This document shows positions 352 through 26,837 of a DNA stretch of 64,000 nt, one piece after another (position 1 is the stretch's first letter; each line of letters starts with the position of its first letter). The position numbers were made by a program, and so were the translations under genes. The notes below the pieces were generated by a model. The model did no database searches. It was given only the letters and a program-made list of their open reading frames with translations, and was not told the origin of the DNA. Origin of the DNA: Liolophura sinensis (Eukaryota > Mollusca > Polyplacophora > Chitonida > Chitonidae); contig NC_088302.1 of the NCBI RefSeq assembly GCF_032854445.1, positions 12,891,338-12,955,337 of the forward strand, given 5' to 3'.

Positions 352-690
352 TTTATTTCATTTAGTTCACATTTATGTAAAGCAAACTTATGTCACAATT
401 CATTTAAAAACATTGTATTACTTTATTTTACTTAATTTACAATATCCCATGAAAATTAATTATGATGTGTTGTTATTTAAATCGGGCACTCATTTACCAT
501 CCTTGAGACGATCACCAATAGTATGGGTCAGTATGTCAGTGTGTCATGCTAGGGTTGCTATCTATCCGAATGGTTCCTATGTATTATATGTATTATATAA
601 ATTTTTTTAGCGGAACATACGTACATATGCACATATGTACAATAGTATGTATATAGAGTATGTCTAGGGTTTGGATATAACGTCCACAAC
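1..690. other. Polinton non-coding spacer upstream of PolB, with (TA)n
   Basis: No gene is seen. The block is repeated in inverted orientation at about 22430-23117, including the (TA)n run at about 308-350 (partner about 22770-22812). In copy B it separates the divergent PolB and RING genes, so the PolB promoter should lie here. Low-complexity reading frames across the TA run are not genes. Confidence 0.75.
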
Positions 691-695
691 CTTCT

Positions 696-3600
696 ATGTT
701 ACAGAGACCTGTTTCATCTACAACTACCCCAATGAGTAAAGCTCAAGTGAGTTTAGCGGGGGATGCCTCGCTGAAAGAAGAAGAAAAGAAAAAAAGTCCA
801 ACGAGCCAGTTCGAGCCCGACCCAGTACAACGGGCTGACCTGCGAGGATTCCACACCCAGCATCTCCTCACCCAAGATCCGCTTACCAGGGCCCAAAAAC
901 AACGCCCCAATACGAAATGGACCGTCGACCTCATCACCAACGTGCTGTTTTTCGTCCACAAACTGCCGCATCAGCCTATCGGTAAAGGTGGGGTAACGTT
1001 ACCCTCTTACCTGAAAGGAAACAAGGGGCTACACACGTTGGTGGATGGAAATAACGGTCTGTACAGGGACTATTTGTGTTTGTTTCGGTGTCTGGCCTTC
1101 CATCTAGATCAGGCCAACCCCAATAACTGCGAACACCAGGCTGAAGTGTATTACCGCAGGTATCTGGAGGAAATGGAGATGGAGCCGAGGTATTTCCGCA
1201 GGGTACCGCTCAGTGCGCTGGACACGGTGGAAAGCCTGTTTCAAGTGAATATTCAAGTCTACCAGCTCATCCCCATGGACAGGTCGTACTCAGCACAACT
1301 CATTCACCGCAGTGCCAAGCGCTATTCTCCCCCTACCCTGCGGTTAAACCTGTACCAGCGGCATTTCAGCTATATCAAAGACATGGGGCGTTATGCTCGA
1401 TCTTTCACCTGCCAGGTGTGCCAGAAGAGTTTCCCGAAACTGTGGGAGTTACGACGGCACGGTCAAACGTGCACCGACGCCATTCGACGAAAGTACCCGG
1501 GGGGTGTCTTCCGCAATCGGCCCGCCATTTTCGAAACGTTGGCGGACATGGGGATCGAACTCCAGAATGGTGACGACGGCATCTTCCCGTACCGAGCGTG
1601 TTACGACTTTGAGGCGTACTTGGCTCCGGTGAACCCGGTGGACGATGCGGCGACTGCCTCGACGGAATGGACGGCTCAACACATCCCCATGAGTGTCAGC
1701 GTCAACTCTAATGTACCGGATTACGACCAGCCCGTGTGTTTCATCTCCACCGGCGATCCCCAGGCACTCGTCGAGGACATGATGGCTTACCTCAACACCA
1801 TCAGCGAGATCAGTAGCGCCTATCTCCACGAGCGTTATGCTTACATCCTGGACGCCTTAGACGAGCGGATCGATCCCGACGAGAAGAAACCGTCTTACAC
1901 ACGCCGAGTGCGGGACAGATTCGTGACCTATATGGACCAACTCCCCGTCCTCGGCTTTAACTCGGGTAACTATGACCTGAACTTAATCAAACAACAGCTT
2001 TACCCCCACCTGGTCCAGAGCGGTGATTTGGAGTATGTGATTAAGCGGAACAATAATCACATGGCCCTCACCACACCGCAGCTGAAATTTCTGGACATTC
2101 GGAATTACCTGGCCCCGAATTACAGTTACGACAAGTGGGTGAAAGCTTACGACTGTCACGTGACCAAAGGGAAATTTTTTTACAGCTACATAGACTCCCT
2201 GGCCCGGCTGGAGGAAACCACACTGTCACCGCAGCATGCTTTCGACAATGATCTCATCCACCAACCGTGCACGGACGCAGAGTACAACACCTTACAGACG
2301 GTGTGGCGAGAGCACGGCATGCGGACCGTCAAAGACTTGCTGTGGTGGTATAATAACCTAGATGTCATTCCCTTCATTGAGGCTGCGGAGAAGATGTCGG
2401 TGTTCTACCGAACCATGCATGTGGATGTCTTCAAACACTGCATCAGCATACCAGGGCTTACCCTCCGCTATTTATTCCATGATTTACGCTCCGTGTTCAC
2501 CCTCGTCGGTGAGAAAGACAAAGACATGCACGATTGCCTCAAGAAAAACATCGTGGGTGGGCCGAGTATCATTTTCCACCGCTACCACGAACGAGGTGTA
2601 ACCCGTATACGGGGCGGAAAGCTGTGTCAGTGCATCGTGGGATTCGATGCCAAGGCGCTGTACCTGTACTGCCTGGCCTCACCTATGCCGGCAGGTCACT
2701 GCGTCCGTTGGCGCCGTCAGGACGGGGGAGAGAAGTTCGTTCCCTCCGGCACCGCCACCCGTCTGGCTGAAAAATTCCTGGACTGGAAGTCACAGCAGCT
2801 GGGGGTATCGATCCGTCACCGACTCAATCACACCGAGAAGCGGATCGGCGATCGACAACTCCCCGTAGACGGGTTCGCCTATATCGACGGACAGCCTACT
2901 GTGTTTCAATTCCACGGGTGTTATTTCCACTATCACGGCTGTCACCTGAATCACCCTCGCCCGGGAAAAGTGTGCTACAACGAGCGGCGGGGATTAACCC
3001 CCCCCCCCCCCCCCCAGGACTTACGGCGGGAGGTGGATGCGAACGACGCATACATTCGCTCCCAGGGCTATCCATTGGTAACGATATGGGAGTGTGAGTT
3101 CCACCGCCAACGCGCGACAAACCCAGCCTTACGGGACTTCCTTCAACAGTACGGTTTACCCCCGTCACAGCGACAACCCAAGACATAAGCTCAGCTCATG
3201 GAGGCTGTCATTCAAGGTCAGTTGTTTGGATTTGTGGAATGTGACATCCACGTGCCGGACCACCTCAAAGCGGACTTTGCCGAATGCCCACCCATCTTTA
3301 AAAACACCGAGGTGAGTCGGGCTGATATAGGCCCCACCATGGCAGAGTTCGCGGCTGTGAATGACATCATGCCAACACCCAGGCGTATGCTGATCGGGAG
3401 CATGTTTGGGAAGCAAATTCTGCTAGCCACACCTCTGCTCCAGTGGTATCTCGGTCGGGGATTGGTCGTCACGCACGTCTACCAAGCGATGGAATACACA
3501 CCGGAGCGAGCGTTCGAAGCATTCGCAGACGCCGTCACCCAAGCTCGACGGGAGGGAGATGTTGACCCCACCAAAGCCCTGATCGGGGAGACGATGAAGC

Positions 3601-4348
3601 TGTTGGGGAATTCAGGTTATGGAAAAACCGTCACCAATCAAGACCGACACGTGGATGTCAAAATCTGTGATCTGGCAAAAACACGAAAATTACTGGCGAG
3701 TGTTCGGTGTCGAACCGTCGACCCCATCGACGAGACCACCTTTGAAGTGACGAGTAGCAAGAAGACCATTCGCTACAATCTCCCCTTGCAAATAGGGTGT
3801 ATGGTCTACCAGTATGCCAAACTCCGCATGCTGGAATTTTATTACGATTTCATGGCTCGTTTTTTCGACAAGGCAGATTGGCAGTACTGTGAGATGGACA
3901 CAGACTCTGCTTACATGGCTTGGTCTGACCCAGACTGGGAATCTCTCGTCAAACCCGAGCTGCGAGTCGTGTACGAGACCGAGCGGGATGCGTGGTTACC
4001 CCGTCGCGACCATTACGACCATGATAAGCGCACACCGGGGCTTTTCAAGTCGAGTGGACCGGTGATGCCATCGTCAGTTTGTGTTCCAAGACTTAATATT
4101 GTTACGGCGGGGCATCCAACACCAAAGACAAACTCTCCTGCAAAGGTGTGAGCGCACGAGGTGTGGACAAGGCCGTGTACCTCTCTGTGTTGCGCAATCA
4201 CCAAAGCGCGAGTGGTGTGAATCGGGGGATGCGGATGCGGGGCAATACGATGTACTCGTATACCCAACACAAAGACGCATTCACATACTTTTACGGGAAG
4301 CGAAAAGTGCTCCCCGACGGGGTGAGCACCACCTATTTAGATCTGTAG
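696..4348 (+). pseudogene. Polinton protein-primed type DNA polymerase B (PolB), broken
   Basis: Replicative family B polymerase of the element. The ATG at 696 is shared with copy B. The N-terminal part holds a C2H2-type finger (CQVC...H...C pattern near residues 238-260). Exonuclease motifs follow: the DFE of Exo I near residue 301 and an FNSGNYDLN segment resembling Exo II. The palm region shows a DAKALY segment corresponding to motif A (near 2640), the NSGYG motif B near 3610 and the DTDS catalytic motif C near 3900. The frame reaches a natural-looking end at 4348, close before the histone-type stem-loop at 4406. The copy is broken, with about three breaks. It is convergent with the capsid gene block. 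The family assignment is firm from motif order and context. Confidence 0.93.
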
Positions 4349-4405
4349 AACGGTGCTATGGATACTCTACACACCCGGCTCCTGTGCTCTTGTGACACTT
4401 CCCAC

Positions 4406-4446
4406 GGCCCTTTTCAGGACCAAGCAACTCTTCCCGAAAGAGTACT
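4406..4446 (+). terminator. Histone-type mRNA 3' end (stem-loop and downstream element) after PolB
   Basis: Positions 4406-4421 read GGCCCTTTTCAGGACC, a 6-bp stem with one mismatch and a 4-base TTTC loop, close to the metazoan histone stem-loop consensus bound by SLBP. A purine-rich CCGAAAGAG element starts about 13 bases after the stem, where the U7 snRNA target of histone genes lies. A second, perfect copy is at 25009-25044. About 150 bp around the two are similar. Known: this arrangement makes non-polyadenylated, S-phase mRNA 3' ends. Inferred: PolB mRNA ends this way. Confidence 0.75.
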
Positions 4447-4644
4447 TTCTCAACCTAAGCACTAAAAAAAGAAAGAAAGGAAACCCCACACCAGACACAG
4501 TCTTCCCATTTTTTTTAATTATACAATTTTTTTCATGTGTTTTATCATTCGCAGTGGTACGTACGTTAAAAAGTTAAAAACGCCTAGCGGGGGGCGGCGG
4601 GCCGGCAGCCGTAATAGCCTGACACACTGACCCGACTTGCCGTG

Positions 4645-4747
4645 CCTGCTACATCGTCATACATTGTTGCCGAGCGGCGCCTTGCCGGTATACGGCAGAC
4701 GGCCTGGTAACAATGTATGACGCAACAATGTATGACGATGTAGCAGG
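4645..4747. repeat. Perfect 26-bp inverted repeat between convergent PolB and protease genes
   Basis: 4645-4670 and 4722-4747 are exact reverse complements separated by 51 bases; the spacer holds a smaller GCCG/CGGC palindrome around GTATAC. It sits in the only gap between the + strand PolB and the - strand capsid block, a plausible place for a bidirectional 3' end or a structure with a role in replication. The function is not shown. Confidence 0.8.
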
Positions 4748-4834
4748 CGGGGTAACAGGTCGAACAGGGAAAACAAGAACGTGGAATGCATAACACGTCG
4801 AACTGGAAAGAAAGAATGTTATTTGATGCATGTT

Positions 4835-5401
4835 TTACAGTCCATGGGTGTGGAAAAAAAACGAGGGATGGATCCCAAACTGACGATCCACCCAATCGAA
4901 CACCCGTAAGTCATTATCGTAGGTCGTGCACGCTGTGTCCAACGTGTGTACAATAGCATCCATGGGACGGCCTCGAGCTCGCTGGGTTAAGTAATACACA
5001 CAATATTGACCGCACACGGTCGTGTCCAGACTCTGCAGCCGCCGATCGTTCCACGTCCAGTGGTGTGTTCCCCAGTTAAGCCAAGCGGTGATATCGGGGT
5101 AGAGGGGTGGGCGTCCGTAGGAATCAAAGTATTCGCCCCGGAGATGGGGTGGATTGGACCACTGGTCTATGAAGACGGCGACCCAATGTCGTCCTGGGTG
5201 AAGGCACGTGTCTGTGTTAATGATGCAGGCCCAGGGGGTCCAGGGTATCCTAGGGGTGGGGCTTGAGGGGCGTGAGGAGCGTGAGGGGCGTGGGGGGAGT
5301 GAAGGAAGATGATCCCGAGGGTAGACCCCACCCCCTCCCCCCACCACAGCCCGGGTAAACACGTCTGTTTGTAGCACACGTCGCAATTGCACCGTGTCCA
5401 T
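4835..5401 (-). CDS. Polinton adenain/Ulp1-like cysteine protease (PRO)
   Basis: Maturation protease of the C5/Ulp1 fold, which in adenoviruses and Polintons processes capsid proteins. Likely catalytic residues visible in order are His in GRHWVAVFID, Asp in EYFDSYG, and Cys in TVCGQYCVYYL, the usual H-D/E-C arrangement with a Gln-containing turn near the Cys. The first ATG, MDTVQLRRVL, is at 5401; a slightly longer frame begins only with TTG. About 188 residues is the normal length for this family. It lies directly downstream of the major capsid gene on the same strand, almost touching it. The N-terminal third contains a Pro/Ser-rich stretch. The frame is open throughout. Confidence 0.88.
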   Translation of the reverse strand: MDTVQLRRVLQTDVFTRAVVGGGGGVYPRDHLPSLPPRPSRSSRPSSPTPRIPWTPWACIINTDTCLHPGRHWVAVFIDQWSNPPHLRGEYFDSYGRPPLYPDITAWLNWGTHHWTWNDRRLQSLDTTVCGQYCVYYLTQRARGRPMDAIVHTLDTACTTYDNDLRVFDWVDRQFGIHPSFFFHTHGL

Positions 5402-5424
5402 GTTGTTGTTTGTTTTTTGGGTGT

Positions 5425-6735
5425 TCAACTGGCGAAGTCACAGAGCACGTTTCGGCTTTGGTCTATTTCTATGATATTGCTGAATTCAGCGTAGCACACC
5501 ACGTTAATGGTTTCCGGCAGTGGTTTGGCAAACCGCATCTCCAGGCGCAAATCCCCTTTTTGTACCAGGTTCAGTTGGTGGTCATCGTGGAGGCTAGGGG
5601 TCAAGTCGAAACAAAACAGCGTGTGGCCTTCGGCGAATGTGGTGCGCTTGATATTGTTTCCCTCGTCGTGGAACGCTTTCCCCGTGTGGGTAAAGAGGTT
5701 CATGTACGTGCGGATGAAATTCTCGTTCTCAAAGTCGGGTGTCAGGGGCTTGGTTGGAATCTGACGACCGCCAACGTACGAAGCGACGAAGTTTGTGTAG
5801 CAGTGTCGGAAACGAAACGGGTTTTTAGTGTAGTCCCCGTCAAAAGCCTTGTTGCTCACACACCCCACCACTAAACGTGTCGGTATGCTGCCCAGAAATA
5901 GGTTTTGTTCATTGATGAGGGTGTGACCTCTGGGGACAGAGAAATACTTGGTCAGCACGCGGCGGATTGGGTACTTGGCAGGAGCTTTGGCCAAGGCTTT
6001 CAAATGCCCCAGTTGTACACCGCTGGTGATTTTCACTTTGCGCACAAAGATCAAGACCTCCTCCAAGCGAGTCTTGTAGCCGGGAGTGGCTTCATCGGAC
6101 ATCAAAGCAAACGAATCCTTAGCCGGGGTGAGACGGATGCGGACCGTGACGTTGTTAAGCAGGTGTCGGTGTTGTAGGAACATGTCACAATGCAGGCGAC
6201 CCAGCATGTCAACCGACCGACTTTCAGCCGTGCACTCCAGCCGATCGACAAACCCATCGTTGGTGTCAGTCATCGTGTCAAACTTTCCTGGGGTGTCCGC
6301 ATACCACAAGGCAGCAGACAGCTGGCTCTTTTTAGCCTCTTTACCATAAGACAACAATGTCTCCAAGTAAGCCCGGTATGGGTACATGTTGGTGGACGGC
6401 GTGATGAGTTTATCGTTCAGGGAGACGTCTACCTGTCGCCACATGGATTGTATCCACAGGTTAGTCGGAGCCACCTTCTTGTCAGCCGCCACAGCCGTCC
6501 CGTCCCCGTTGAGGATTTTTGCTTTCACGTACAGCATGGTGTTGGCCAAGTCCAAGTAAGTGTCTGCGTCAGCGTTGGTGATGACAAATTCTACAGGTCC
6601 CACATCACTCAGGCTGGCGATGGGGCTGTAAGCATCCCAGCGGCCTTCTCGAACGCTGGTGTCGGTCGGGGGTAAGGTCCACAAATCAAACTCACTGCTG
6701 GCGGACGGGCAGCACTCGGGGTGGGGAAGAGCCAT
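5425..6735 (-). CDS. Polinton major capsid protein (double jelly-roll, hexon-like)
   Basis: A 436-residue open frame from ATG at 6735 (MALPHPECC). Position in the - strand block, next to the adenain-type protease, and sequence style (for example the SMWRQVDVSLNDKLITPS segment near residue 95 and the YPYRAYLETLLSYG segment near residue 120) match the Polinton PY/hexon-like family, whose members form the virus-like shell. Family members are often annotated as uncharacterised proteins similar to worm F54H12.2. The frame looks whole. Assignment rests on recognised segments plus gene order; a structure prediction showing two eight-stranded jelly rolls would settle it. Confidence 0.88.
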   Translation of the reverse strand: MALPHPECCPSASSEFDLWTLPPTDTSVREGRWDAYSPIASLSDVGPVEFVITNADADTYLDLANTMLYVKAKILNGDGTAVAADKKVAPTNLWIQSMWRQVDVSLNDKLITPSTNMYPYRAYLETLLSYGKEAKKSQLSAALWYADTPGKFDTMTDTNDGFVDRLECTAESRSVDMLGRLHCDMFLQHRHLLNNVTVRIRLTPAKDSFALMSDEATPGYKTRLEEVLIFVRKVKITSGVQLGHLKALAKAPAKYPIRRVLTKYFSVPRGHTLINEQNLFLGSIPTRLVVGCVSNKAFDGDYTKNPFRFRHCYTNFVASYVGGRQIPTKPLTPDFENENFIRTYMNLFTHTGKAFHDEGNNIKRTTFAEGHTLFCFDLTPSLHDDHQLNLVQKGDLRLEMRFAKPLPETINVVCYAEFSNIIEIDQSRNVLCDFAS

Positions 6736-6766
6736 GGCTTGTGTATGTGCGCGTGCGTGTGTGTGT

Positions 6767-7231
6767 TTAGCTGAAAATATCCGGTGGATTCAGGGCATTC
6801 GATGTGGCTCGAGCTTTGATGTGTCTACTTCTGGGCTTGACGGCACGTCTTTTAAGTCCCACGTGTCGGTGACGAGTGGGCGTGACGCGCGGTGTCTTCC
6901 GTTTTATAGGCTCACCCAGTAACCGCTGTCGGGCGTAGCGACTAGCTTTGACCAGCAGCTGTTTTCCAGTCGCCAAACCGCGTCGTTTCAGAGCCTGTTG
7001 TGGTGACACGCCCCCACTCAGCACGTCCCCCACGACTTGCAGTCCGGTTCGTAACGCCGTTTTGCCCAGTGCTTTCACAGCCGGTGAGGTTAACAAGGGT
7101 TGTGGGAGGAGTTTGCTGAGACCGCCCAGCAAACCGTGACCGCGCTGGACAGCCACACCCCGAAACACAGGTAACCCACCTCCGCCGGCTTGTTTGGTGT
7201 AATAGTCAACGTAAGCCTGCTGTGATGCCAT
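6767..7231 (-). CDS. Polinton pVI-like small capsid-associated protein
   Basis: A 154-residue frame from ATG at 7231. A Gly-rich start (GGGGLPVFRGVAVQRGHG) is followed by an amphipathic stretch (LLGGLSKLLPQPLL) and a KALGKTALRTGLQVVGDVLSGG segment, then a strongly basic tail (RHRHVGLKRRAVKPRSRH). This layout is typical of the adenovirus protein VI-like gene of Polintons/adintoviruses, proposed to be membrane-active and to bind the inner capsid. It starts where the minor capsid gene ends and lies just upstream of the major capsid gene. The frame looks whole. Confidence 0.78.
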   Translation of the reverse strand: MASQQAYVDYYTKQAGGGGLPVFRGVAVQRGHGLLGGLSKLLPQPLLTSPAVKALGKTALRTGLQVVGDVLSGGVSPQQALKRRGLATGKQLLVKASRYARQRLLGEPIKRKTPRVTPTRHRHVGLKRRAVKPRSRHIKARATSNALNPPDIFS

Positions 7232-8638: not shown

Positions 8639-9034
8639 TTTATGATGACACACTGACACACTGACCCAGTCACCGCTCGCCACAATAATACACTGTTTTA
8701 CCAGGCCGTCAGCTGACACGTCAACCAGCCCACCCACCAACCAACCCACCAGCCAGCCAGCCAGCCAGCCAAAAACAAACTGATGTGACAGATTGTAGGT
8801 TCAAAGTTGGTATTATGACTTGGGAGCTAGGTGTGTTGTGTTTATGATAACACTGACACACTGACCTAGGCACCGCTCGCTGCAATAATACACTGTTTTA
8901 CCAGTCCGTCAGCTGACACGCCAGCCAGCCCACCCACCAGCCAGCCCACCAGCCAGCCAGCCAGCCAAAACAAGCTGATGTGATAGATTGTAGGTTCAAA
9001 GTTGGTGTTATGACTTGGGGAGATAGGCGTGTTG
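8639..9034. repeat. Two tandem copies of a ~198-bp unit between pX-like and ATPase genes
   Basis: Copy 1 (about 8639-8836) and copy 2 (about 8837-9034) share the same order: TGACACAC repeats, a CAATAATACACTGTTTTACCAG block, a run of CCAGCCAGCC, then a TTGTAGGTTCAAAGTTGG block. The 3' end of the ATPase frame falls inside copy 2, so the unit includes the gene's tail region. Apart from the tandem duplication no gene is seen here. Confidence 0.85.
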
Positions 9035-9625
9035 AATCTCCCCGGGGAAAATGTGGGTGCGAAGTCGCAGGTGATCGGGTGTGGTTTGCTTGAAATCCAC
9101 CAGCAAATACCCGTGAGGTTCAGCCGTGGCATCTTCAAAGGCCTCGCGCACGTACTGTGTTCGCCCTGGAGCCATTTGTTTAGCGATCGTGGTAATTTGG
9201 GATACATCTCGCGGGTTTTTGAACAGCACCAAGTAGTGTGCATTCAGACTGATGGTCCGATGGTCTTTGGTTTTGTTAAACAAATTCTGCACGATGTACA
9301 CCACGCTGATATTGCGGTGGTGACTGCCTTTGGTGAAGAGTTTTGTCACGCGATCGTCGGCTTCAGCCATCAAATCATCCACGACGACTAACGTCCGCTC
9401 CCCAGGGTCGAAAGTGGACGGGCTGGGCACACCTTCTTCAAACTGAACGTGAGGTAATGTGGTGTACAATGGCTGCCACTCCCCGTAACACCAGACGATG
9501 CGTTGTGGGGGTGGATGAAAGAGAGTTGGAGCGTGTTCCACTAACCGTTTCACAAACACAGACTTCCCAGATCCCGTCGGGCCGCTGACAATGCAGGTAA
9601 AGGGATGCTCCCATCGCGTGTCCAT
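9008..9625 (-). CDS. Polinton FtsK/HerA-type DNA packaging ATPase
   Basis: About 205 residues from ATG at 9625 (MDTRWEHPF). Walker A is GPTGSGKS at residues 15-22 and Walker B is TLVVVDDLM near residue 80; a later HRNISVVYIVQNLF segment fits the sensor region of A32/FtsK-like packaging ATPases. In Polintons and related viruses the enzyme pumps genome DNA into the capsid. Length is normal for the family. It is followed on the same strand by the pX-like gene and preceded by the membrane protein gene, with only a few bases between. The frame looks whole; the C-terminus runs into the duplicated spacer. Confidence 0.93.
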   Translation of the reverse strand: MDTRWEHPFTCIVSGPTGSGKSVFVKRLVEHAPTLFHPPPQRIVWCYGEWQPLYTTLPHVQFEEGVPSPSTFDPGERTLVVVDDLMAEADDRVTKLFTKGSHHRNISVVYIVQNLFNKTKDHRTISLNAHYLVLFKNPRDVSQITTIAKQMAPGRTQYVREAFEDATAEPHGYLLVDFKQTTPDHLRLRTHIFPGEIQHAYLPKS

Positions 9626-9633
9626 GGGTAGAA

Positions 9634-10227
9634 CTAGCTCCGTCGGCGGTTTGGATCGTCGTACGGGTGGGGGTGGTGGATAGTGGGGGGAGTGACGGCA
9701 GGTGATGGTACCTGTGTCGCCTGCGTTGGCTGTGTTGCCTGTGTTACCTGTGTTACCTGTGTTGTGTTAGGGGGTAGATAGACAGGTGTGGAAACGATGC
9801 TAGGTATTGGTGTGGTGGGGTGAGTAGGGGTGGGTGACTGGGGTGAGGAGTTTGAGGAGTTTGAGGAGTTTGAGGAGAGTGGGTGTCGTCGGTGTAGTGT
9901 GATTGTGGTGGGTGTGGAGGGTTGTGACGTGGGAGTTCGATCCCAGCTCGGGGTAATGGCGCTAGTGGCAGTGACGGCGTTCTCGGTATTGTCAAACCGA
10001 CGGGCAATTGACGGTGGTTGGGGTGGCGATACAGGTGTCCCAATCCAGCGGAAACGCGTCTTGTTCAATTGTCCTCGTAGATATTGCAGGGTTGACTGGT
10101 CTTGGAGCAGTTGTAGGCTGAGTTCCGCAGCCAATCCACCCACTAAAGCACCGATGTACAAGAGAACGCCCAGTACGGCTGCTACGGTCCCTTTATTCTC
10201 GCGCAAGCCTTGTATACACCGATCCAT
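9634..10227 (-). CDS. Membrane-anchored Ser/Thr/Pro-rich Polinton protein, unknown function
   Basis: About 197 residues from the first ATG at 10227 (MDRCIQGLRENKG). One hydrophobic segment, VAAVLGVLLYIGALVGGLAA (near residues 15-34), is followed by a short helical part and then about 110 residues made mainly of Ser, Thr and Pro, with SSNSSNSSNSS and TQVTQVTQATQ runs. That pattern suggests a single-pass membrane protein with a mucin-like, potentially O-glycosylated tail. It lies between the integrase and ATPase genes on the same strand. I do not recognise a family. Because low-complexity tails evolve fast, similarity searches may fail even if it is a real structural or attachment protein. Confidence 0.6.
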   Translation of the reverse strand: MDRCIQGLRENKGTVAAVLGVLLYIGALVGGLAAELSLQLLQDQSTLQYLRGQLNKTRFRWIGTPVSPPQPPSIARRFDNTENAVTATSAITPSWDRTPTSQPSTPTTITLHRRHPLSSNSSNSSNSSPQSPTPTHPTTPIPSIVSTPVYLPPNTTQVTQVTQATQPTQATQVPSPAVTPPTIHHPHPYDDPNRRRS

Positions 10228-10277: not shown

Positions 10278-11420
10278 TTAAATACGTTTCACGTCCGTGG
10301 CCGACACCCAAGAATTAAAGCTGGGTGGATAACCGACCCACTTCACCCAGTAGTACAGTTTCCCGCGCCGCCGCTCCCTTTTTAAGATCTTCTCCACCTG
10401 ATAAAACTTATCCACCGCGGCTGTCACCGGTTGGAGTTCGGTTTCGTAAAACGTCCCTAGCAATTGGTCCCCGTTCAAATCCTCCAGTGTGTACACTGCA
10501 GGCTGTCGAGGGTGGGAGCGGACGATGCGGAACATTTCCGTGCTCCAATTCGGCAGGTATGATTTTTCAAATTTCCCTTTCACTTTACTGATACGCACGA
10601 GATCACCGGCCCGATACCGGTGGACCGAACGTTTGGCTGTGGGTGGACCGTACAAGACTTGCCGGACTTCCTTCTGGTTCTGGGGGGTGACGTCGATAGG
10701 AGCTCGTCGTATGCTTCGGTGGTAGGCTTGATTGTAACCGCGAACCAGCGTCGGTAAGGCGTCCAGGTAGCGCCGAGTGTTGTGAGCGGTGAAATATTTG
10801 TACATGCGACCTTTCAAAGTGCGGTTGAACCGTTCTACCACGGAGGCTTTGGTTTCGTTAAACGTGTGAAAGAAAAACACCCCTTTGTCCTTTAAAAAGG
10901 CTTGAAACGGTCTGTTCAGAAACTCTTTGTCCTCGCCCGTTTGCAGGTACAACGGTTGGCGACCCGTCTTGAAAATCTGTTGAAATGCCTCGATCAAACG
11001 AGCCCCGGTTTTGGCCCGGAGTGGCATCACCCAGGCATACTTGGAGAGCACATCGATGCAGGTCAGTAGGTAACGGTTGTTGTCATTCTCTTTGGCGAAC
11101 GCTGTCATGTCGACCAGGTCCGCCTACCACTGACTGTCCATACCCCCAACCACCACTCGGTTACGCGGGTAATGGCGGCGTGCAGGCCGCTGGAGTGTGT
11201 ACGTGTCCTGCTGAGCCAGCGAAGCCGACACGTGGGTTCGACTGACTTTGAGTCCCTGTTGTCGAGCTGCCTTGAGCAGGGGTTGAACCCCGCTGTAAGC
11301 CGCTGGACTGTCCGGTTTATAATACAAAGCATGGAGAGCGGCATCGATCGGGTTTGAACGACGGCCCGGGGTGACTGATTTTTTTTCCGCCGTGGGTTGG
11401 TGCGAGGCATAGTCCGCCAC
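10278..11420 (-). pseudogene. Polinton retroviral-type integrase with chromodomain, broken
   Basis: Integrase that joins the element ends to the target. The N-terminal region (about 11100-11420) carries the family's PIDAALHALYYKPDSPAAYS-type segment. The catalytic core lies below 11108, with ENDNNRYLLTCIDVLSKYAW, the TGEDKEFLN segment, and the final acid in KASVVERFNRTLKGRMYKYF. The C-terminus is a chromodomain (FYQVEKILKRERRRGKLYYW, then KWVGYPPSFNSWVS), typical of Polinton integrases. The gene is broken about once or twice. It is the promoter-most gene of the - strand block. Its last bases overlap the longer possible frame of the membrane protein gene. Confidence 0.9.
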
Positions 11421-11599: not shown

Positions 11600-12033
11600 T
11601 AGAGTGGTGTGGAGTGGGGTATAGTAGAGTATAGTATAGTAGAGTGTAGTATAGTCTAGTAGAGTATAGTTTAGTCTAGTCTAGTAGAGTAGAGTAGAGT
11701 CTCCAGTGTGCATGTATGTTTGGGTGGGGTGTCGATCCAACCATCCCTACCACAACCCACAGGTAGCCAGACAGGGAAATCCCACCGACAGGCTCTACGG
11801 TTCATAACACCGACCCTCTGCCTGCAGCAGTGAGCCTTCCTGGGCGAACAGTGTTGCAAAGACACGCTGAGCGATCCTACCCACCAGCCTGATGGTAGCA
11901 TGCAGGGGGTTCACGGTGGTGGAGCGTTTCATCTCGCCAGGCAGGTAGGCAGGCAGGCAGGCAGGCCGGTAGAGCGTCAGGTGCGTCTAAGGCTGCCGGT
12001 CGCTGTCTTCACCGGCTTTTATCCTATCCAAGC
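11421..12033. repeat. Non-coding stretch with (TA)n and a TATAGTAGAG minisatellite
   Basis: Between integrase and the terminal repeat there is no gene. About 11511-11594 is nearly pure TA. About 11595-11700 is a degenerate repeat of 5-base steps such as GTATA/GTAGA. At 11940-11970 there is a short GGCAGGCAGGCAGG run. A promoter for the - strand gene block would be expected here or in the adjoining terminal repeat, but no clear element stands out. Confidence 0.7.
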
Positions 12034-12337
12034 GGAAATTCACCACACGCTGATTGGTTCGTTTTTTCTTACGTAACCTCTTCTCGCACGCTGATTGGTC
12101 CGTTTTGCGGGCCCCCCCATTGGGCAGTTTTGGGGCAAATCCGGCTTACCCATTGGCCCGTTTTGGCGCCCGGGAGCTCTTTTCGAGCTGTCCCACTCGA
12201 CTTTACAAGCCGACGTTTTGCCTCTTTTTTTTTCTCTCTTTTTTCCTTATACTGTTATACTGTACACTATATCACACTAGTCTATACACATACACCCCGC
12301 GGCGTGGGAAAAACCCACAACTGAGGGGTGACGTCAC
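12034..12337. repeat. Polinton copy A right terminal repeat
   Basis: About 300 bp matching 26838-27151 in the same window orientation. Because copy B is inverted, that makes the two the opposite ends of the same element type, that is, terminal inverted repeats. Shared features are two CACGCTGATTGGT blocks containing inverted CCAAT boxes, a TTTTTTTTCTCTC run, a CACTATATCACACTAGTCTA block and a terminal GGGGTGACGTCAC containing a CRE-like TGACGTCA. In copy B the outer end reads AGTGACGTCACC inward, fitting the usual AGT start of Polintons. Confidence 0.85.
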
Positions 12338-12639: not shown

Positions 12640-12990
12640 TGTCAGTACATTGGTACCGTCTTGTCTTTTATAAGTATACTGTGACTTGGTGGTGCGTCTC
12701 GTCTGTTGTCAGTAGGTTTATACTGTAACAGGGTGGATACTGCGCTCTGTACACTGTGACTGAGCGGTATTCCTTGTCTGTTGTCGGTGTACTGTGAACG
12801 GGTTAGCCGTCTTGTGTGATGTCAGTACACTGTGATTGGGGAGTACATTTTCGTCGTGTCTGAAGTTAGTATACTGTGACTGGGTGGTGCGTCTTGTCTG
12901 GTGTCAGTATACTGCTTGTGTCACTTTGTGGTGCGTCATGTTTTGTGTACTGTGTTTGGTTGGAGAACCGTGTCTGGTGTCGGTACCCTG
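12640..12990. repeat. Minisatellite, GTACTGTGACTGGGTGGTGC-like units
   Basis: Degenerate tandem units of about 40-50 bp with the core ACTGTGACTGGGTGG-TGCGTCTTGTCTG-TGTCAGTA. The inverted partner array is at about 30055-30765 and is longer, so the arrays have expanded or contracted separately since duplication. Confidence 0.75.
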
Positions 12991-14932
12991 TAACTGGGAG
13001 GGAAATAATAATTTTGAGAATGTATCGGTAAGAAAATCAGTAGGGATTGTCATATTCATTAGGATGGATATTTAAGTAAATTACATTGTCTTTTATTTTT
13101 TAATAACCCTTTTCCGTCAAAAATAATCTGCATTACGTCAAGGACAGTTTTGTATTACCTCCCTATAACATCATTTTTAAATGATGGGAAGACGTGAATT
13201 ACTTTCTTTCATATGAACGTGAAAATAAATATATAATACTGGTTAAATAATTGTAAATGCAGACATTTAAAACGGGTGTTCGATTTAAACTGATTGTATC
13301 TATCTAGTAAGCTAAGAATAATGATTTGTCTAACGTCTATATGAAGATTAAAATCCATAAATTCATTCTGTGAGATGACAGAGGTGATGATATTACGGAC
13401 ATAAATGCACCTGAGACTTATGCTCGAGACCTTGAAAGTAGACCTCTGATAAATCCACAGGAAACATTTCTTAACAATTGATGGTCTGATCCAAGCCACT
13501 TTCAGGAATAGTGATGACCAGTAGAAACGGGGGTAAGTGTGGGGATGGAAGGGGGGGAGGGGGTCGGTCATGGTTTAGCACAGAGGTTTATGATAGAATC
13601 AACAGGAAGCATTTTTATTCATGGATGGGATGTGTGTGTGTGTTGGGGAGGCTAGGTTCTGGTTTAGCACAATGGTTTCTGACACAATCAACAGGAACAC
13701 AATTATCAACGCAAGCTCTCTCTCTTCTACTTTGATAAAACTAGTAAACAGATTGTTAGATACGTATCTACAGAATCTGTGTGTTAATCTGTTTTTCAAA
13801 ATGTGAATTTGACCACATTTTATAAAAACTGTTCATACAGTTGGATAAAAGTGAGCGAACTGTGTTCATAGGATTTTCCACCTCACAGTCTATACGAGAA
13901 AAAGACTCACCAGACATAACACAGAACATGAATGTAATCCGAAGAAAATATTTTTGCTTAAATTCTCTCCTCTCTTGGATTTCAAGGTAAATAAAACCTA
14001 TGTTTAACTTAATGGGACCGGTCATACTGGAAAACCTAGTCAGCATCCGATTATCTGTAATTACTCGCAAATTCCCTCCTTTCTGGTTGTCGCATAGCAT
14101 ACACGGTGCTCTCTAATTCTAAGAAAGCCTTGTCAACAAAACTGCCTTCAGTTACAGAGTAAGTGTGTTACTTATCGAGTCTCGTCTGCAGACACTGTTA
14201 TTATCCTTCGGAATATTATGAGGGTATTGAAGATCATGAAAGGAAAAGTTTTGTAATGATATATTCGTGAGCACAATATCTATGTACGGTAACATAATAA
14301 GTATGTCGTGAGACTCGCTGTGATGACACACTGTAATCGCGCCGTTCCAACTTTGGAGTCAATTCCGTACGTTTTGCATTTGACTTCACGCCGACAAATA
14401 TATGCGAGAAGGCATCCAGTTGTGAGAGTTACCTTTCTTTCGATCACAAGAGAACAGATTAATGCTGTCCCGTTGTATCAGCCAGTTCCGTCTGTCACGT
14501 TCCCCGCACTGATTGTTCATAGACATGGAGCTGCCTGAAAAAGGGCGGTCCGGTTCGGTACTTTGTCCTTCTTTGCATGACCACTGAAATGATAATTTAT
14601 ATATATGTGATTTATGGTGATGCGGAGACGTGGCAGTAAGAACAAGTCTGGAGCAGTATGATTTATGAGCCAGTCAATACGGTTCATTATACAGCTTGTG
14701 GTCTAGTAAGTCAACAGACAAGAAATACACAGAATTCAGCTTAATCTCACAGCGTTCAACAATGTCCATAAGGAGGCTATAAAAGAGAAAAACAGAGGCA
14801 AAAATATGCTGGATATAACGAATTTTTGACCAACAAATATTTCGTCTGAAGTTTGGGAAAATGATTTGTACCTTGATTGGCAACGCGTTTTTCTATCTTG
14901 AAACGAAGTACTTACACAAGCAATCTGGACCC

Positions 14933-15520
14933 AGGATCACGAAGCTGTCTTAGGGTCACGTCAGACTTAATCTTAACTTGAAAACAGTTTACTACGCTAA
15001 AATTTAGACTCACCTTAAGGATGTTTATTTCAGTACTAAGCGGCGTCTTACTCTTAGGCACACGTGACAGAAATGAAACATGTACGCTCAAGTGTAAGTT
15101 CTTGAATAACACGACAAATTAAAATTAAGTCTGACCTAACAATAAGACAGCTTCGTGATCCCAGGGAAGGATTAACCATCAAAAGTTAACCACTGTGAAG
15201 AGGTTTCATGTTTTGACTCAAGTCAGAAATAGCTTTATAAAATTTTCCCCTCTCACCGGGAAGCAATCACGAAGCAATCTTAGACTTAAGTCAAAATGTC
15301 ATTGAACTTGGTATGCTCCTTTTCTTAAATTTGTTTTACAATAACTTACCCAAAATGTATGTTGTTAAGCAATATTTTGACTTTGTTACGTTAGAAATAA
15401 CAATTTCAAAGTGATCTGAAATTTTCACTCAAGTCTAAGATCGCTTTCTGTTTCCGGGGCCAGGCTCCAGTTTCACGAAGTAATCATAGACTTAAATGTT
15501 AGTCCTGGTGCCTGTAGGGT
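14933..15520. repeat. Cluster of TCACGAAGC-type repeat units with a foldback
   Basis: GGATCACGAAGCTGTCTTA at 14933 pairs with its reverse complement near 15143, forming a foldback about 230 bp long. Related units (TCACGAAGCAATCTTAGACTT, TCACGAAGTAATCATAGACTT) recur near 15265, 15475 and 12510 and in the inverted H arm near 27580, 27800, 27905 and 28120. This looks like a non-autonomous transposon family; the class is unknown. Confidence 0.6.
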
Positions 15521-15936
15521 TAGTAAGCCTGAAATACGTAAAACCCCTGAAAATTTTTTTGTAGAGAAACTAGTACGGAAAGGCGGTGAATCGGTCCCAG
15601 AGAGGTAAGGAAGTGCAAATTTCAAAACCAAATCACGTTCCTGTAAATTTCCAAATCAGGAGTATAAATCTTGGTCGAAGCACCCGTAAAAGTTTTAATG
15701 GCCATAAAAGAGATGGTTGCCTAGTAATAGCTCACCAAAAATGTATTCTCGATCAAAAACGCCAATTTTTCATACAAACCATGCACAATGTTTTTAATTT
15801 ACAGTATGAAGATCAACGTTAAGATAACGTTAACTTAACCAGAAAATGTCCTTACTCAAACTTTCATGTGTGTATTTTAAGGTGCTTTAACGATTTGGTT
15901 AACGTTTGCTTTTATGTGTAAAACATGAACTTTATA

Positions 15937-18572: not shown

Positions 18573-20247
18573 CCCTTTAGCTACTGAATTATTTATCAGT
18601 ATTACTTGAATTATAGGCATAGATTTTTGGAATGATGTAAGGTTGAAAGTGGCAAGAGGTAGAAACTTGGTATAATGGTAAACTTTATTGGGTATTACTA
18701 GTACCTCAAAATGACACTAATTAATTTGACCTATTTGCATATTAATTAGGTCACGTGAGCTCAAATGAGGTCACAAAAATAGGTCAACCAGTTTATTTCA
18801 TGTTTTCGTTACTATTTTTGCCCTATTGTCACATGTAAATCATTAGATATGCTAAAATGGATATTTTATAAACACAATAAAGTATATTCTGGGACATAAT
18901 TCATGAATTTTACTTCATTTACTTATGTATTTACTAGATTTTCTGGAGAGTCGCCTTCAGTTTTAGTTCGTATTTCTGACAATGTAAGTTTTGTTTCTAT
19001 TAGAATTACAACAATGAATGTCATATTCAGTAACAAGAGGTACAATAGTGTTCAGCTGTACCTTAGCTAAGGGTGTCATTACCGTGCAACAATAAACCTG
19101 GGCCAAATCCTAGAAAAACAAGTGGCACAGTTTGTAGTTTAGCTGGGTGTGGTAGCGCTCGTTGTATGGGTAGGCACAAAGCGCAACCCCACACTGACGG
19201 CAACGAAAGTGGGTTTGTTTCTTCCCCCCTGGAATGGATGTGTCACAGCAAACCACACACTGGGGTCTTGCCTTTCCCGTTGGTTCCAGCCAGTGTCTTT
19301 CTACCAATCTCTGAGGCTTATCACCTGTAATAGGGCGTCCTGGGCGTACAGAGTCACGTTTGCCATAGCCTTCAAGGAGTGAGGTACAGACTTCCATAAT
19401 GAAAGACTTCAGGTCAAGTTGTCTTTCTGCATTCACCACAGATCTGTGAATAACTTGAGCATTTACAAGGCAAATAGAAATGAGTGCATTGATGATGCGC
19501 ATGTACCATTTCCTTGACCTGTGCGGGAAGTTGTATGTTTTCATGCGCTGACCCGCAAGATCCACACCACCCATGTAAGAATTATACTGGACAACACAGT
19601 ATGGCTTTTTGACCACCCTAAATCCATCTGGACTGTGTTTTGATCGGATTCTCTTTTCGACATTTCGATTGGGATGGACAGTTGATATCACAGATACCCT
19701 TTTAGTATCATGCCAGGTAACGACCAGCAACTTATTATTCCTCATGTACACAGGATCGTCGCCTTTGCGCAGGGGTAGATTTGCAGGTTTTAGTTCAACT
19801 GGTATTCCCACACGATTTGCATTGATTGTACCACACATACCAGTTTGTTGATCAGCAAGGTCTTTTGCCAAAGGAATACAAGAGTAGTAGCTGTCAATAT
19901 ACACAATACGACCAACATGATTGTATTCGTTCATCAATTTTCTGACAACACGGTGAGCTGCCCCAATCCCATCACCATTGTTCTGAGGTGGGTCATCAGT
20001 TTTGCCAGTGTAGAGATCCCATTTCAAGGTATACCCGGTTTCAGACTCTGACAACACAAATGCCTTGTATCCCCATTTATCCGGCTTCTTCGCATTGTAC
20101 TGTTTGATTGCACTGCAACCCTTGAACGCAATTGTCATTTTGTCTAGGGACAGGTCTCTTTTCGGCTGATATATTTGACTGAACTTGGGAACAATAATGT
20201 CAATGATAGGCCTGATTTTGAAAAGCCGGTCATAACCTGGTTCACAC
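18573..20247 (-). mobile_element. Truncated piggyBac transposon (piggyBac-1)
   Basis: The 3' end of the element is at 18573: TTAA (18569-18572) followed by CCCTTTAGCTACTG, clearly related to the CCCTTTAGTGCCTG tip of piggyBac-2. The transposase lies on the - strand. The 5' half is missing: at about 20240-20250 the sequence passes directly into Polinton copy B PolB. The short CACAC shared by both parents at the junction suggests joining by microhomology. Confidence 0.88.
19110..20247 (-). pseudogene. piggyBac transposase, N-terminally truncated (PGBD-like)
   Basis: DDE transposase of the DDE_Tnp_1_7 family. The reading frame is open from the junction at about 20247 (segments RLFKIRPIIDIIVPKFSQIY and KRDLSLDKMTIAFKG) to the stop at 19110, about 378 residues; the first ATG inside is at 20138 but is not the natural start. 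First catalytic Asp is in SLDKM, second in GRIVYIDSYYSC. In the last acidic pair, normally VDxxD, the sequence reads VDLAG, so one catalytic Asp is replaced. The C-terminal Cys-rich zinc ribbon is present (CVVC, FRCRQCGVALC). With no N-terminal region, no 5' end and a changed active site, it is dead. It is a separate family from piggyBac-2. Confidence 0.9.
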
Positions 20248-22424
20248 CTTTCCCGGGCGAGGGTGATTCAGGTGACAGCCGTGATAGTGGAACTAACACC
20301 CGTGGAATTGAAACACAGTAGGCCGTCCGTCGATATAGGCGAACCCGTCTACGGGGAGTTGTCGATCGCCGATCCGCTTCTCGGTGTGATTGAGTCGGTG
20401 ACGGATCGATACCCCCAGCTGCTGTGACTTCCAGTCCAGGAATTTTTCAGCCAGACGGGTGGCGGTGCCGGAGGGAACGAACTTCTCTCCGCCGTCCTGA
20501 CGGCGCCAACGGACGCAGTGACCTGCCGGCATAGGTGAGGCCAGGCAGTACAGGTACAGCGCGTTGGCATCGAATCCCACGATGCGCTGACACAGCTTTC
20601 CGCCACACCTCGTTCGTGGTAGCGGTGGAAAATGATACTCGGCCCACCCACGATGTTTTTCTTGAGGCAATCGTGCATGTCTTTGTCTTTCTCACCGACG
20701 AGGGTGAACACGGAGCGTAAATCATGGAATAAATAGCGGAGGGTAAGCCCTGGTATGCTGATGCAGTGTTTGAAGACATCCACATGCATGGTTCGGTAGA
20801 ACACCGACATCTTCTCCGCAGCCTCCATGAAGGGAATGACATCTAGGTTATTATACCACCGCAGCAAGTCTTTGACGGTCCGCATGCCGTGCTCTCGCCA
20901 CACCGTCTGTAAGGTCTTGTACTCTGCGTCCGTGCACGGCTGGTGGGTGAGATCATTGTGGAAAGCATGCTGCGGTGGCAGTGTGGTTTCCTCCAGCCGG
21001 GCCAGGGAGTCTATGCAGCTGTAACAAAATTTCCATTTGGTCACGTGACAGTCGTAAGCTTTCACCCACTTGTCGTAACTGTAATTCGGGGCCAGGTAAT
21101 TCCGAATGTCCAGAAATTTCAGCTGCGGTGTGGTGAGGGCCATGTGATTATTGTTCCGCTTAATCACATACTCCAAATCACCGCTCTGGACCAGGTGGGG
21201 GTAAAGCTGTTGTTTGATTAAGTTCAGGTCATAGTTACCCGAGTTAAAGCCGAGGACGGGGAGTTGGTCCATATAGGTCACGAATCTGTCCCGCACTCGG
21301 CGTGTGTAAGACGGTTTCTTCTCGTCGGGATCGATCCGCTCGTCTAAGGCGTCCAGGATGTAAGCATAACGCTCGTGGAGATAGGCGCTACTGATCTCGC
21401 TGATGGTGTTGAGGTAAGCCATCATGTCCTCGACGAGTGCCTGGGGATCGCCGGTGGAGATGAAACACACGGGCTGGTCGTAATCCGGTACATTAGAGTT
21501 GACGCTGACACTCATGGGGATGTGTTGAGCCGTCCATTCCGTCGAGGCAGTCGCCGCATCGTCCACCGGGTTCACCGGAGCCAAGTACGCCTCAACGGGA
21601 AGATGCCGTCGTCACCATCCTGGAGTTCGATCCCCATGTCCGCCAACGTTTCGAAAATGGTGGGCCGATTGCGGAAGACACCCCCCGGGTACCAGGTTGG
21701 CCTGGTCTAGATGGACGGCCAGACACCGAAACAAACACAAATAGTCCCTGTACGGACCGTTATTTCCACCCACCAACGTGTGTAGCCCCTTGTTTCCTTT
21801 CAGGTAAGAGGGTAACGTTACCCCACCTTTACCGATAGGCTGATGCGGCAGTTTGTGGACGAAAAACAGCACGTTGGTGATGAGGTCGACGGTCCATTTC
21901 GTATTGGGGCGTTGTTTTTGGGCCCAGGTAAGCGGATCTTGGGTGAGGAGATGCTGGGTGTGGAATCCTCGCAGGTCAGCCCGACTCGCCACGCGGTACG
22001 GTGCGTTGAGTACTCGGGTGTTGTTGGTGCTCGGGTAATAATACCGCACCTGGCCCGTCTCTTTGTGGCGGAGGATATATCCAAAACTGTAATTGATAGT
22101 AAAAGCAGTCGGCTGGTCTTCGTAAATCTCGTCTACAAAGGCTGGGATAGCACCGAGATCACTCAGTCGGTAATTATAACAGTCTTGAATTGGTTTGTGG
22201 CGATGGAAATGCGTCCTGATCGATCGCCAATGCCGCTGGTACAACTCCCGCACGTCACTGTCACGGCTCGGCAAGACAGCCTCGTGAGGTTGCACTGGGT
22301 CGGGCTCGAACTGGCTCGTTGGAGTTATTTTCTTTTCTTCTTCTTTCAGCGAGGCATCCCCCGCTAAACTCACTTGAGCTTTACTCATTGGGGTAGTGGT
22401 AGATGAAACAGGTCTCTGTAACAT
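20248..22424 (-). pseudogene. Polinton PolB, copy B, partial and broken
   Basis: N-terminal and exonuclease regions plus the start of the palm, on the - strand, from the ATG at 22424 (MLQRPVSSTTTPM, the same as copy A). The Exo segment FNSGNYDLNLIKQQL and the later GMRTVKDLLRWYNNLDV segment are nearly identical to copy A. Coverage of the N-terminal region differs between the two copies, so neither represents the full original. It has a few breaks and ends at the piggyBac junction. Confidence 0.9.
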
Positions 22425-22768
22425 AGAAGGGTGTGGACGTTATAACCAAACCCTAGACATACTCTATATACATACTATTGTACATATGTGCATATGTACG
22501 TATGTTCCGCTAAAAAAATTTATATAATACATATAATACATAGGAACCATTCGGATAGATAGCAACCCTAGCATGACACACTGACACACTGACCCATACT
22601 ATTGGTGATCGTCTCAAGGATGGTAAATGAGTGCCCGATTTAAATAACAAGAAATCATAATTAATTTTCATGGGTTATTGTAAATTAAGTGAAATAAAGT
22701 AATACAATGTTTTTAAATGAATTGTGACATAAGTTTGCTTTACACAAATATGAACTAAATGAAATAAA

Positions 22769-22813
<45 letters not shown>

Positions 22814-23432
22814 TGATACAATTGTTAACTCTGCAAAACCCCCTATACAGTTTTGGAACAAAAAATAAAGAAAATTACCATATATTACTCTTTCCAGACA
22901 CGTATTGTCGTTTGACATTTAGAGTTATGCCCCTTATTTCCATTATTCCAACAAAAGTAGTTGCCCCTGCTAAGCGTATTCCATCAGGAGTTATCCCCCT
23001 TGTTTACATACATTTGACATCGCACATTCGTGGGTTTCTACTACGAAATACATAAGGAAATATCCTCTAAGCTACTCAAGCTTTCTATCTAGCTTTACTG
23101 GAGTTACAAACTATTAAAAGACACAACCATCCTTAAATATATTGAACTAAAACTACTGTTATTTCAATAAGAAATCTAGCGATCTCAGCTGTGAATAATC
23201 ATTTTGAGCAATGAAATGCAGCATGTCTTATTGCATATGATCCAGTAAAGAAGTTTTTTTTATACTTTTCATATACTGTTACAAACATGTAACATGCGAT
23301 AGCTCTTACTGTCTTCAATTAACTTTCAAGAAGCAAAGCGGGTTCAGGAAAGAAAGAAAGAAGACATCTAAGCCTACAATGACCACTTATTCAATTGACA
23401 CTTATACACGTAGAAATCACAACCACCAGCCG
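22425..23432. other. Polinton spacer between PolB and RING genes, with (TA)n
   Basis: No gene is seen. About 22430-23117 is the inverted counterpart of 1-690; homology is lost at 23117 only because copy A runs out at the window edge. The (TA)n run is at about 22770-22812. 22573-22594 carries the TGACACAC repeat ending TGACCC that recurs in other element gaps. A short TA run is at 23445-23460. Confidence 0.65.
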
Positions 23433-23737: not shown

Positions 23738-24832
23738 ATGGACCGTCGATTCCACGATTTTTTGGGGAGTGCCGGGGAGGGGCAATAGGATGATAGTGAT
23801 GAAGACCAGTCTTCTTCTAACCATAACCAGGATGAAGAACCATGGACGCCGTCACCCCCGGCCTCCCCAATCATCATCCCGGATACTCCACCACCCCAGG
23901 GGAGCAACACCACACCCAACGGGGAGGAAAGAGACCTCCGCCCCTGCCCCTGCCCGCGGTGCGTAGATAGGAGAGCGGGTAGGAGAGTGGGGGTGGGGCG
24001 AGGAAATTACGTCAATAGACTCCAGGAAATGATCACCAGCGGAGAGACGGTCGCCGCCGCCACCACCACCACCACCACCACCACCCCAGAAACACCCCGC
24101 CTCACACAAACGCTCATGGAGCGGTTTACGACGCGGAGGGATCCCGTGGGGCGGGGTATTGGCCGGGGACTCCCCCGGCAACTGAATCTGGAGGACGGGA
24201 GTTCTTCACCTGTACCATCACCTACACCACGGTCACCTGGGTGGTTGACAGCACGCCGGGGTCGGGCACGAGCCCGTCCTACAGCTCGTGTCCCACCCCA
24301 CCCACGGGACACCCGCCGTGAGGATGAGAGCCAGTTGCCATCACCCCTAGCCCAGGCTTTGCCTTCTACCCCGGTTAGGGAAGTAGGGGCGGTTAGAGCT
24401 CACCCCAACATGACATTTCGCACAACAGAAATTGGAAACCACAATTATCTAACTGCAGAGGAGCGCAACACCCTGGTTAGAGATGTAGAAGACCGGTTAA
24501 GAGCTCAACCGCCCCTACAATGGTTTCTCATCCCCGCGGCGGTAGGAGGCTTACCATTAACACCAACTCCACGCGAGTCAACAGCAGCAGCAGCACCACC
24601 TGTCTCACCTGGGCCGGGCGCAGGTGAGGGGCTTGCGGCATCCCCACAGGGTAGGGGACAGGTATCCGACGGTTTTCCGACATGTCGGATTTGCTATGAG
24701 AGACCGTCGAGTGCATGCCTCCTACCCTGCGGTCATGCGGCGATCTGTCTCACCTGTGCCCGCAGACTTGACCCACAGCAGTGTCCCTTCTGTAATTTGT
24801 ATATTTTACGTGTTGTTCGTTTATTTTATTAA
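23738..24832 (+). CDS. RING-finger protein carried by Polinton copy B
   Basis: The C-terminal RING domain is clear: CRICYERPSSACLLPCGHAA, then CLTCARRL and CPFC, a C3HC4 pattern with a short spacer, like the RING of IAP and other E3 ubiquitin ligases. The reading frame covering the domain is open from at least 23987 to the stop at 24832; its true start is not resolved and the copy may be broken upstream. The middle is Pro/Arg/Thr-rich with a run of Thr (CAC repeats near 24060) and no BIR repeat. It lies between the PolB spacer and a histone-type 3' end. IAP or RING-like genes are known as cargo of related viruses; a role in blocking cell death or modifying host proteins is inferred only. Confidence 0.72.
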
Positions 24833-24998: not shown

Positions 24999-25008
24999 CT
25001 TTTCCAAC

Positions 25009-25044
25009 GGCCCTTTTCAGGGCCACCCAACTCTTCCGAAAGAG
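25009..25044 (+). terminator. Histone-type mRNA 3' end after the RING gene
   Basis: 25009-25024 reads GGCCCTTTTCAGGGCC: a perfect 6-bp stem with a TTTC loop, followed at once by ACCCAACTCTT and a CCGAAAGAG element at 25036-25044. This matches animal replication-dependent histone genes at every recognised position (stem, loop, ACCCA, U7-type purine element). The same arrangement follows PolB in copy A at 4406-4446, and similarity continues to about 25135. It lies about 175 bases after the RING stop codon. Confidence 0.85.
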
Positions 25045-25249
25045 TACTTTCTCAATCTAAGCACTAAAAAAAAAAGAAAGAAAAGAAACCCCACACCAGA
25101 CACAGTCTTCCCATTTTTTTAATTGTACAATTGTACTTGTTCTGATATTTTTTTTTATCGCAAATCCTCTTCCTAAACTTCTGCTCCACTTAATTCATAC
25201 CTAAAACTTAAGAGTTACTTAAAACTTTGCCTAATTCACACCCAGCCTG

Positions 25250-26230: not shown

Positions 26231-26307
26231 CGTGGGTTAGTAGGTCACTCAACCTGCTGCTTGGGGTGGAGAAAAATAAAATAAAATATAAAAAAAAAAG
26301 AACTTAC

Positions 26308-26739: not shown

Positions 26740-26837
26740 CGTCGCTTGTTTACTCGGTCGCTCGATCGCTCGTTCGGTTGGTGTCTTCAGGTGAAGTGAT
26801 CTGCTACTGCTGCACCCGTCTTTTTGTACCTGAGACA

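Follow-up and report, generated by a model that had tools for sequence, protein, structure and literature searches.

Histone-type 3'-end signals follow the DNA polymerase and RING genes of Polinton elements in a chiton genome

Histone mRNAs acquire their 3' ends through SLBP and the U7 snRNP, with cleavage behind a hairpin, and to our knowledge ends of this type have been regarded as almost private to histone genes. The S-phase role of histone mRNA, together with U7 and the downstream element, is covered in PMC5011920, and some histone pre-mRNAs are reported to use either histone or canonical processing (PMC9756948). In a literature search of partial coverage, none of the matches listed reported histone-type ends in Polintons, Mavericks or adintoviruses, in viruses or in transposons.

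The window analyzed here is a 64-kb stretch (C8:12891338-12955337) of the 609-Mb assembly of the chiton Liolophura sinensis, and it holds portions of two Polinton elements. Element 1 carries PolB on the plus strand, followed by convergent genes on the minus strand, among them an integrase with a chromodomain and one resembling a packaging ATPase; its start lies to the left of the window, where the adjoining piece (L132) holds its RING gene on the minus strand and the partner of its terminal repeat, such that L132:6416-6730 and window positions 12337-12029 form terminal inverted repeats of 95% identity. Element 2, a fragment, has its PolB on the minus strand and RING on the plus strand, and its RING protein is 97% identical to that of element 1. 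In-frame stops at 3186-3188 and 4149-4151 interrupt the PolB gene of element 1, which was handled as separate pieces only. One of these (3189-4151) is matched by 2034 proteins, some of them named DNA-directed DNA polymerase, identifying it as a family-B DNA polymerase, putatively of the protein-primed type; against PF03175 PolB scores 16 bits, under the cut-off. Five Liolophura sinensis proteins match RING. The remainder of the window includes inverted repeats of 3.2 kb (12754-15936 and 27154-30311, 93% identical) between which lie the truncated second Polinton and a PF13843 (piggyBac) transposase (19110-20267), as well as another PF13843 transposase at 33854-35278 and a satellite array with a 67-bp unit (71 registered copies) from 58752 to near the right end.

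Table 1. Coordinates, in window numbering, of the Polinton genes and of the histone-type 3'-end features.
Feature	Position	Strand	Remarks
PolB gene, element 1	681..4349	+	681 is a stop-to-stop bound; TAG at 4347-4349
3'-end cassette, PolB copy, 130 bp	4399..4528	+	91% to 25002-25132
Histone-type stem-loop after PolB, GGCCCTTTTCAGGACC	4406..4421	+	one C.A mismatch
Purine-rich CCGAAAGAG after PolB hairpin	4434..4442	+	putative U7-pairing histone downstream element
CCTAAGCAC	4454..4462	+	counterpart of TCTAAGCAC in host H1/H3 and other copies
Gene convergent with PolB	4835..5437	-	3' end faces the cassette
Double jelly-roll capsid candidate, by position	5425-6789		no Pfam match
Packaging-ATPase-like gene	9008..9766	-	PF04665 and PF02456, both just under cut-off
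Integrase with chromodomain	10278..11123	-	PF00665, PF00385; retroviral-type integrase
Probable right terminal inverted repeat, element 1	12029..12337	+	partner L132:6416-6730
PolB fragment, element 2	20243..22439	-	divergent from RING
RING-finger gene, truncated element 2	23789..24832	+	stop-to-stop bounds; PF13920, 2.8e-11
3'-end cassette, RING copy, 130 bp	25002..25132	+	
Histone-type stem-loop after RING, GGCCCTTTTCAGGGCC	25009..25024	+	no mismatches; followed by ACCCA
Purine-rich CCGAAAGAG after RING hairpin	25036..25044	+	
TCTAAGCAC	25056..25064	+	past the RING purine element

A reading of the window made beforehand from its letters (the sequence-only reading) had described a histone-type hairpin with a purine-rich CCGAAAGAG after PolB, and a mismatch-free second copy with ACCCA after RING. 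Both are present (4406-4421 with 4434-4442, and 25009-25044), and the stretch that they share, put at 150 bp in that reading, comes to about 130 bp (4399-4528 and 25002-25132, 91% identical). The PolB hairpin begins 56 nt past the TAG, and in both window copies the purine-rich element is placed 11-12 nt past the hairpin, with a similar element in host H1 and H3 genes. Scored with the Rfam Histone3 model (RF00032, cut-off 34 bits), the RING hairpin stands above the cut-off (39.9 bits, E 3.1e-8) and folds to -11.4 kcal/mol, which 1 of 200 shuffles equalled. The PolB hairpin falls under the cut-off (18.4 bits, E 3.3), and is thus not significant alone; its fold of -4.2 kcal/mol was equalled by 86 of 200 shuffles. 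When up to 3 mismatches are allowed, the hairpin pattern by itself gave at least 2 matches in 27 of 100 shuffles of the window and is hence not improbable; the significance of the signal rests on the full Rfam model and on the relatives. The RING hairpin of element 1 (L132:8102) has no mismatch and scores 39.0 bits, so that RING and PolB of element 1 both carry the signal at their 3' side, and the PolB hairpin of the window looks like a damaged or decayed relative. A separate long hairpin after PolB (4644-4751), found again in 3 of 10 scanned PolB copies, scores 34.2 bits with a microRNA precursor model, far under the cut-off of 84.

Queried with the PolB piece at 3189-4151, the assembly gave 144 matches, the best 30 of which were studied with their flanks. 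A 26-nt core of the signal lies downstream in the sense orientation in 22 of these best 30 copies, 19 of them exact and three inexact (L141, 24/26; L157, 25/26; L161, 23/26), against 14-18 of 26 positions in control scans upstream and on the antisense strand; the enrichment behind PolB in other copies, which had been set as a test, is thus borne out. The distance from the stop could be measured in 19 cassette-bearing copies, and in all of them the first base of the hairpin is base 57-73 past the stop. The other 8 of the 30 reach only 14-16 of 26 core positions downstream: two copies that are 98-99% identical (L154, L163) have lost the PolB hairpin through deletions, four (L159, L164, L167, L169) match at the PolB end and in the sequence beyond while the cassette is missing as a clean block, and two more diverged copies without it (L165, L168) are too old to tell. 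Rfam itself was run, among the PolB copies, on L161-L170 only, where Histone3 matches occurred in 4 of 10 flanks (L170, 36.2 bits; L162, 31.8; L166, 28.2; L161, 21.2), 1 of 10 (L170) standing above the cut-off. Exact hairpins followed by AACCA in this set reach just 28-32 bits.

The assembly as a whole contains 146 exact copies of the 16-nt hairpin and none of a reversed control pattern. Among the 100 of these 146 places that were listed (contigs C1-C7), 50 fall in three tight clusters, of which the one checked, on C1, lies beside two histone genes; 13 are at PolB 3' ends, 8 are at the expected RING site (on the other strand and 4.1-7.4 kb 5' of PolB), with RING inferred by position, and the remaining 29 are without assignment. 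An exact hairpin at C7:7108258 was assigned to the element of L160. The two copies with a deleted PolB hairpin (L154, L163) still have a hairpin at the RING position, and no exact hairpin was found within 1.6 Mb of the cassette-free copies on C6 (L164, L165, L169). Among the RING positions read directly, that of L159 (L173) has element sequence matching 23396-23547 and no RING, that of L169 (L174) has neither element sequence nor RING, both being uninformative on the signal, and in L175 RING is present (81% at the nucleotide level), with the sequence read ending before the RING 3' end.

Histone stem-loops also occur elsewhere in the assembly, in a tandem array of ~1.41-kb units (C10:21.12-21.29 Mb, L102) that accounts for 71 of 75 scored Rfam matches. 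This array does not consist of histone genes: in L102, the units that were read code for a protein of 103 aa that is not a histone, and that has no Pfam match over the cut-off and 16 homologues, none of them named, 7 lying on contigs about as long as one unit (1.29-1.51 kb). A further 39.8-bit histone stem-loop at L135:5041 (C7:54.55 Mb) has no gene upstream to which a name could be given.

Host H1 and H3 genes on C1, identified with Pfam, provide a yardstick for these ends. Their 3' ends read ccaac, GGCYCTTTTCAGGGCC, a(a/c)cca, a GAAAGAG element and TCTAAGCAC, and score just 32.7 bits with Histone3, themselves under the cut-off of 34. The 42 nt after the Polinton hairpin are 70-77% identical to host H1/H3 (0/300 shuffles equal), a score about equal to that of H1 against H3, but no such resemblance to H1 and H3 extends into the 70 nt beyond (84 to 279 of 300 shuffles equal). 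Upstream, the 60 nt before the RING hairpin resemble H1 (0/300 shuffles) and, weakly, H3 (8/300), and the 60 nt before the PolB hairpin of L142 are less like H1 (14/300) and H3 (255/300). The signal may have been captured from a histone gene, or may have been built by selection.

The cassette extends beyond this locus, to the 22 of 30 PolB copies above, and an intact signal is present in a second PolB lineage on C10 (L134/L105). There, a perfect hairpin that scores 39.8 bits in Rfam stands behind a PolB 51-57% identical in its matching pieces; aaccacatcctcaaaagag and a TCTAGGCATG stretch come next, and here too the signal faces genes of the capsid side. The 70 nt past this signal, a low-complexity stretch, are 61% like the young cassette (0/300 shuffles equal), making a cassette common to the Polintons more likely than two captures. 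In the 10 kb scanned in L134, the hairpin was found solely after PolB, and none was found after the PolB copies of L171 (41%) and L172 (58%) in the 801 and 321 bp read. Among viral contigs, searches with the PolB piece and a PolB alignment gave no confirmed relative, and the hairpin with ACC gave 0 matches; 101 bare-hairpin stretches there, none directly followed by ACC, were set aside as chance.

In a PolB tree rooted at its midpoint, six cassette-free copies split from the other 24 (22 with the cassette, 2 with it deleted) with support of 100/100. This tree fits one gain of the cassette below the 24-copy clade followed by two deletions, the direction of gain resting on the midpoint root and on the ladder of cassette-free copies. 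This PolB family thus seems to have gained the signal once and fairly recently.

At 465-504 nt past the stop, 18 of the 19 measured cassette-bearing copies have a sense AATAAA, the window copy being the exception, and neither AATAAA nor ATTAAA was found between stop and hairpin in any of the 19. Since 6 of the 7 hairpin-less copies that were measured also have AATAAA, it is apparently older than the histone signal, and it seems to act now as a fall-back. Its retention in 18 of 19 copies suggests that polyadenylated PolB transcripts may exist beside hairpin-ended ones. The core itself shows modest constraint: all variants in its 54 columns are single-copy, so that columns with a variant shared by at least two copies number 0/54, against 36/430 non-homopolymer columns outside (p = 0.012), and diversity is 0.017 against 0.047 (column permutation, p = 0.0019). 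With 22 of 427 outside windows also free of shared variants and 14 of 427 as invariant as the core, these figures are suggestive, not strong.

Together, the signal, its position and sense strand, its distribution among copies, its likeness to host histone ends and the one-gain tree constitute support at the sequence level, and we conclude that these Polintons very probably carry a working SLBP/U7-type 3' end as a cassette. SLBP would bind the hairpin of PolB and RING transcripts and the U7 snRNP would pair with the CCGAAAGAG element, directing a cut just past the hairpin, and the resulting mRNAs would have a stem-loop end in place of poly(A), to be exported, translated and degraded on an S-phase schedule. 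We infer cleavage by the host U7 machinery, the absence of poly(A) and the coupling to S phase each from these sequence features; a polymerase dependent on nucleotides and on a replicating nucleus would be well served by use in S phase. Entry of the cassette into the PolB 3' UTR most likely took place once, on the branch to the young, amplified clade, and the AATAAA further downstream would be the remaining, older fall-back. As a whole, the account of a histone-type cassette that entered once and made PolB and RING mRNAs hairpin-ended and S-phase-scheduled, with AATAAA as fall-back, appears to us highly likely. The idea put forward in the sequence-only reading, that histone-type mRNA ends couple the replication genes to host S phase, is thus partly supported: it stands as far as an enriched, host-like signal after PolB and RING is concerned, but is qualified by the single, fairly recent gain of the signal and by the retained AATAAA. 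To a broader version, in which the cassette moves between genes and Polinton lineages, mRNAs are S-phase-timed and free of poly(A), and the gain at PolB set off a burst of copies, we give slightly better than even credence.

The arrangement of the genes raises the possibility that the histone-type end works, but that what it offers is a compact and efficient way to terminate transcripts of convergent genes, and not S-phase timing. Both cassettes indeed lie in tail-to-tail gaps, PolB facing the gene at 4835-5437 and RING facing a zinc-finger gene at 26245-27051; in L159, L164, L165 and L167, however, the same gap has AATAAA on each strand and no cassette, and the pathway is cell-cycle regulated where it has been studied (PMC5011920), leaving this reading rather unlikely. 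The two cassettes of element 1 face outward around RING and PolB, an inverted arrangement that could instead reflect action as DNA, for example as recombination or replication sites flanking a RING-PolB module. We regard this as very improbable, given that the histone-like part is an RNA signal including its single-stranded flanks, and that the lone hairpin of L134 lacks an inverted partner in the 10 kb scanned.

The cassette could also be host histone-gene DNA that was passively captured and has hitch-hiked, functionless, on a successful element. A single gain followed by amplification is compatible with the tree, two nearly identical copies (L154, L163) have lost the cassette, and the likeness to host histone genes is clear, reaching for RING and H1 into the 60 nt before the hairpin. 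Against this stand the sense strand and short stop distance in each measured copy, the presence of the cassette on two genes facing opposite ways, the perfect hairpin retained behind a PolB of 51-57% identity, the core without shared variants and the end of H1/H3 likeness downstream of the signal, and we consider passive capture improbable to the point of being a slim prospect. A chance palindrome might be suspected from the frequency of mismatched bare hairpins in the window and from the random-looking matches in viral contigs, but is already refuted by the 146 exact copies against none for the control and by the 22 of 30 PolB flanks, and deserves next to no credence.

If a functional histone-type end is confirmed, a selfish element would plug into cell-cycle control through the RNA 3' end instead of a promoter, and its replication genes could, through the signal, be linked to the DNA-replication phase of the cell. 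The genome moreover offers a natural before-and-after series of cassette-free copies, one inferred gain and later deletions, which makes effects on expression and copy number directly testable.

In its gene content the locus resembles known Polinton/Maverick (adintovirus-like) elements, with PolB, a chromodomain integrase, an ATPase-like gene, convergent capsid-side genes and terminal inverted repeats, and differs from them in the histone-type ends on PolB and RING. Those ends share with the Histone3 (SLBP/U7) type the hairpin sequence, loop, flanks, purine element and spacing, and are like those of host H1 and H3; the 6-bp stem, 4-nt loop and conserved flanks are found in the RING copies (39.9 and 39.0 bits) and in the divergent PolB (39.8 bits), the window PolB copy alone falling short (18.4 bits). 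Unlike histone ends, they follow genes for a viral-type DNA polymerase and for a RING protein, and have an AATAAA further on in most measured Polinton copies. The histone pre-mRNAs with dual processing described in PMC9756948 likewise combine a histone signal with a polyadenylation signal, whereas in the Polintons the histone signal seems to have come later than the AATAAA.
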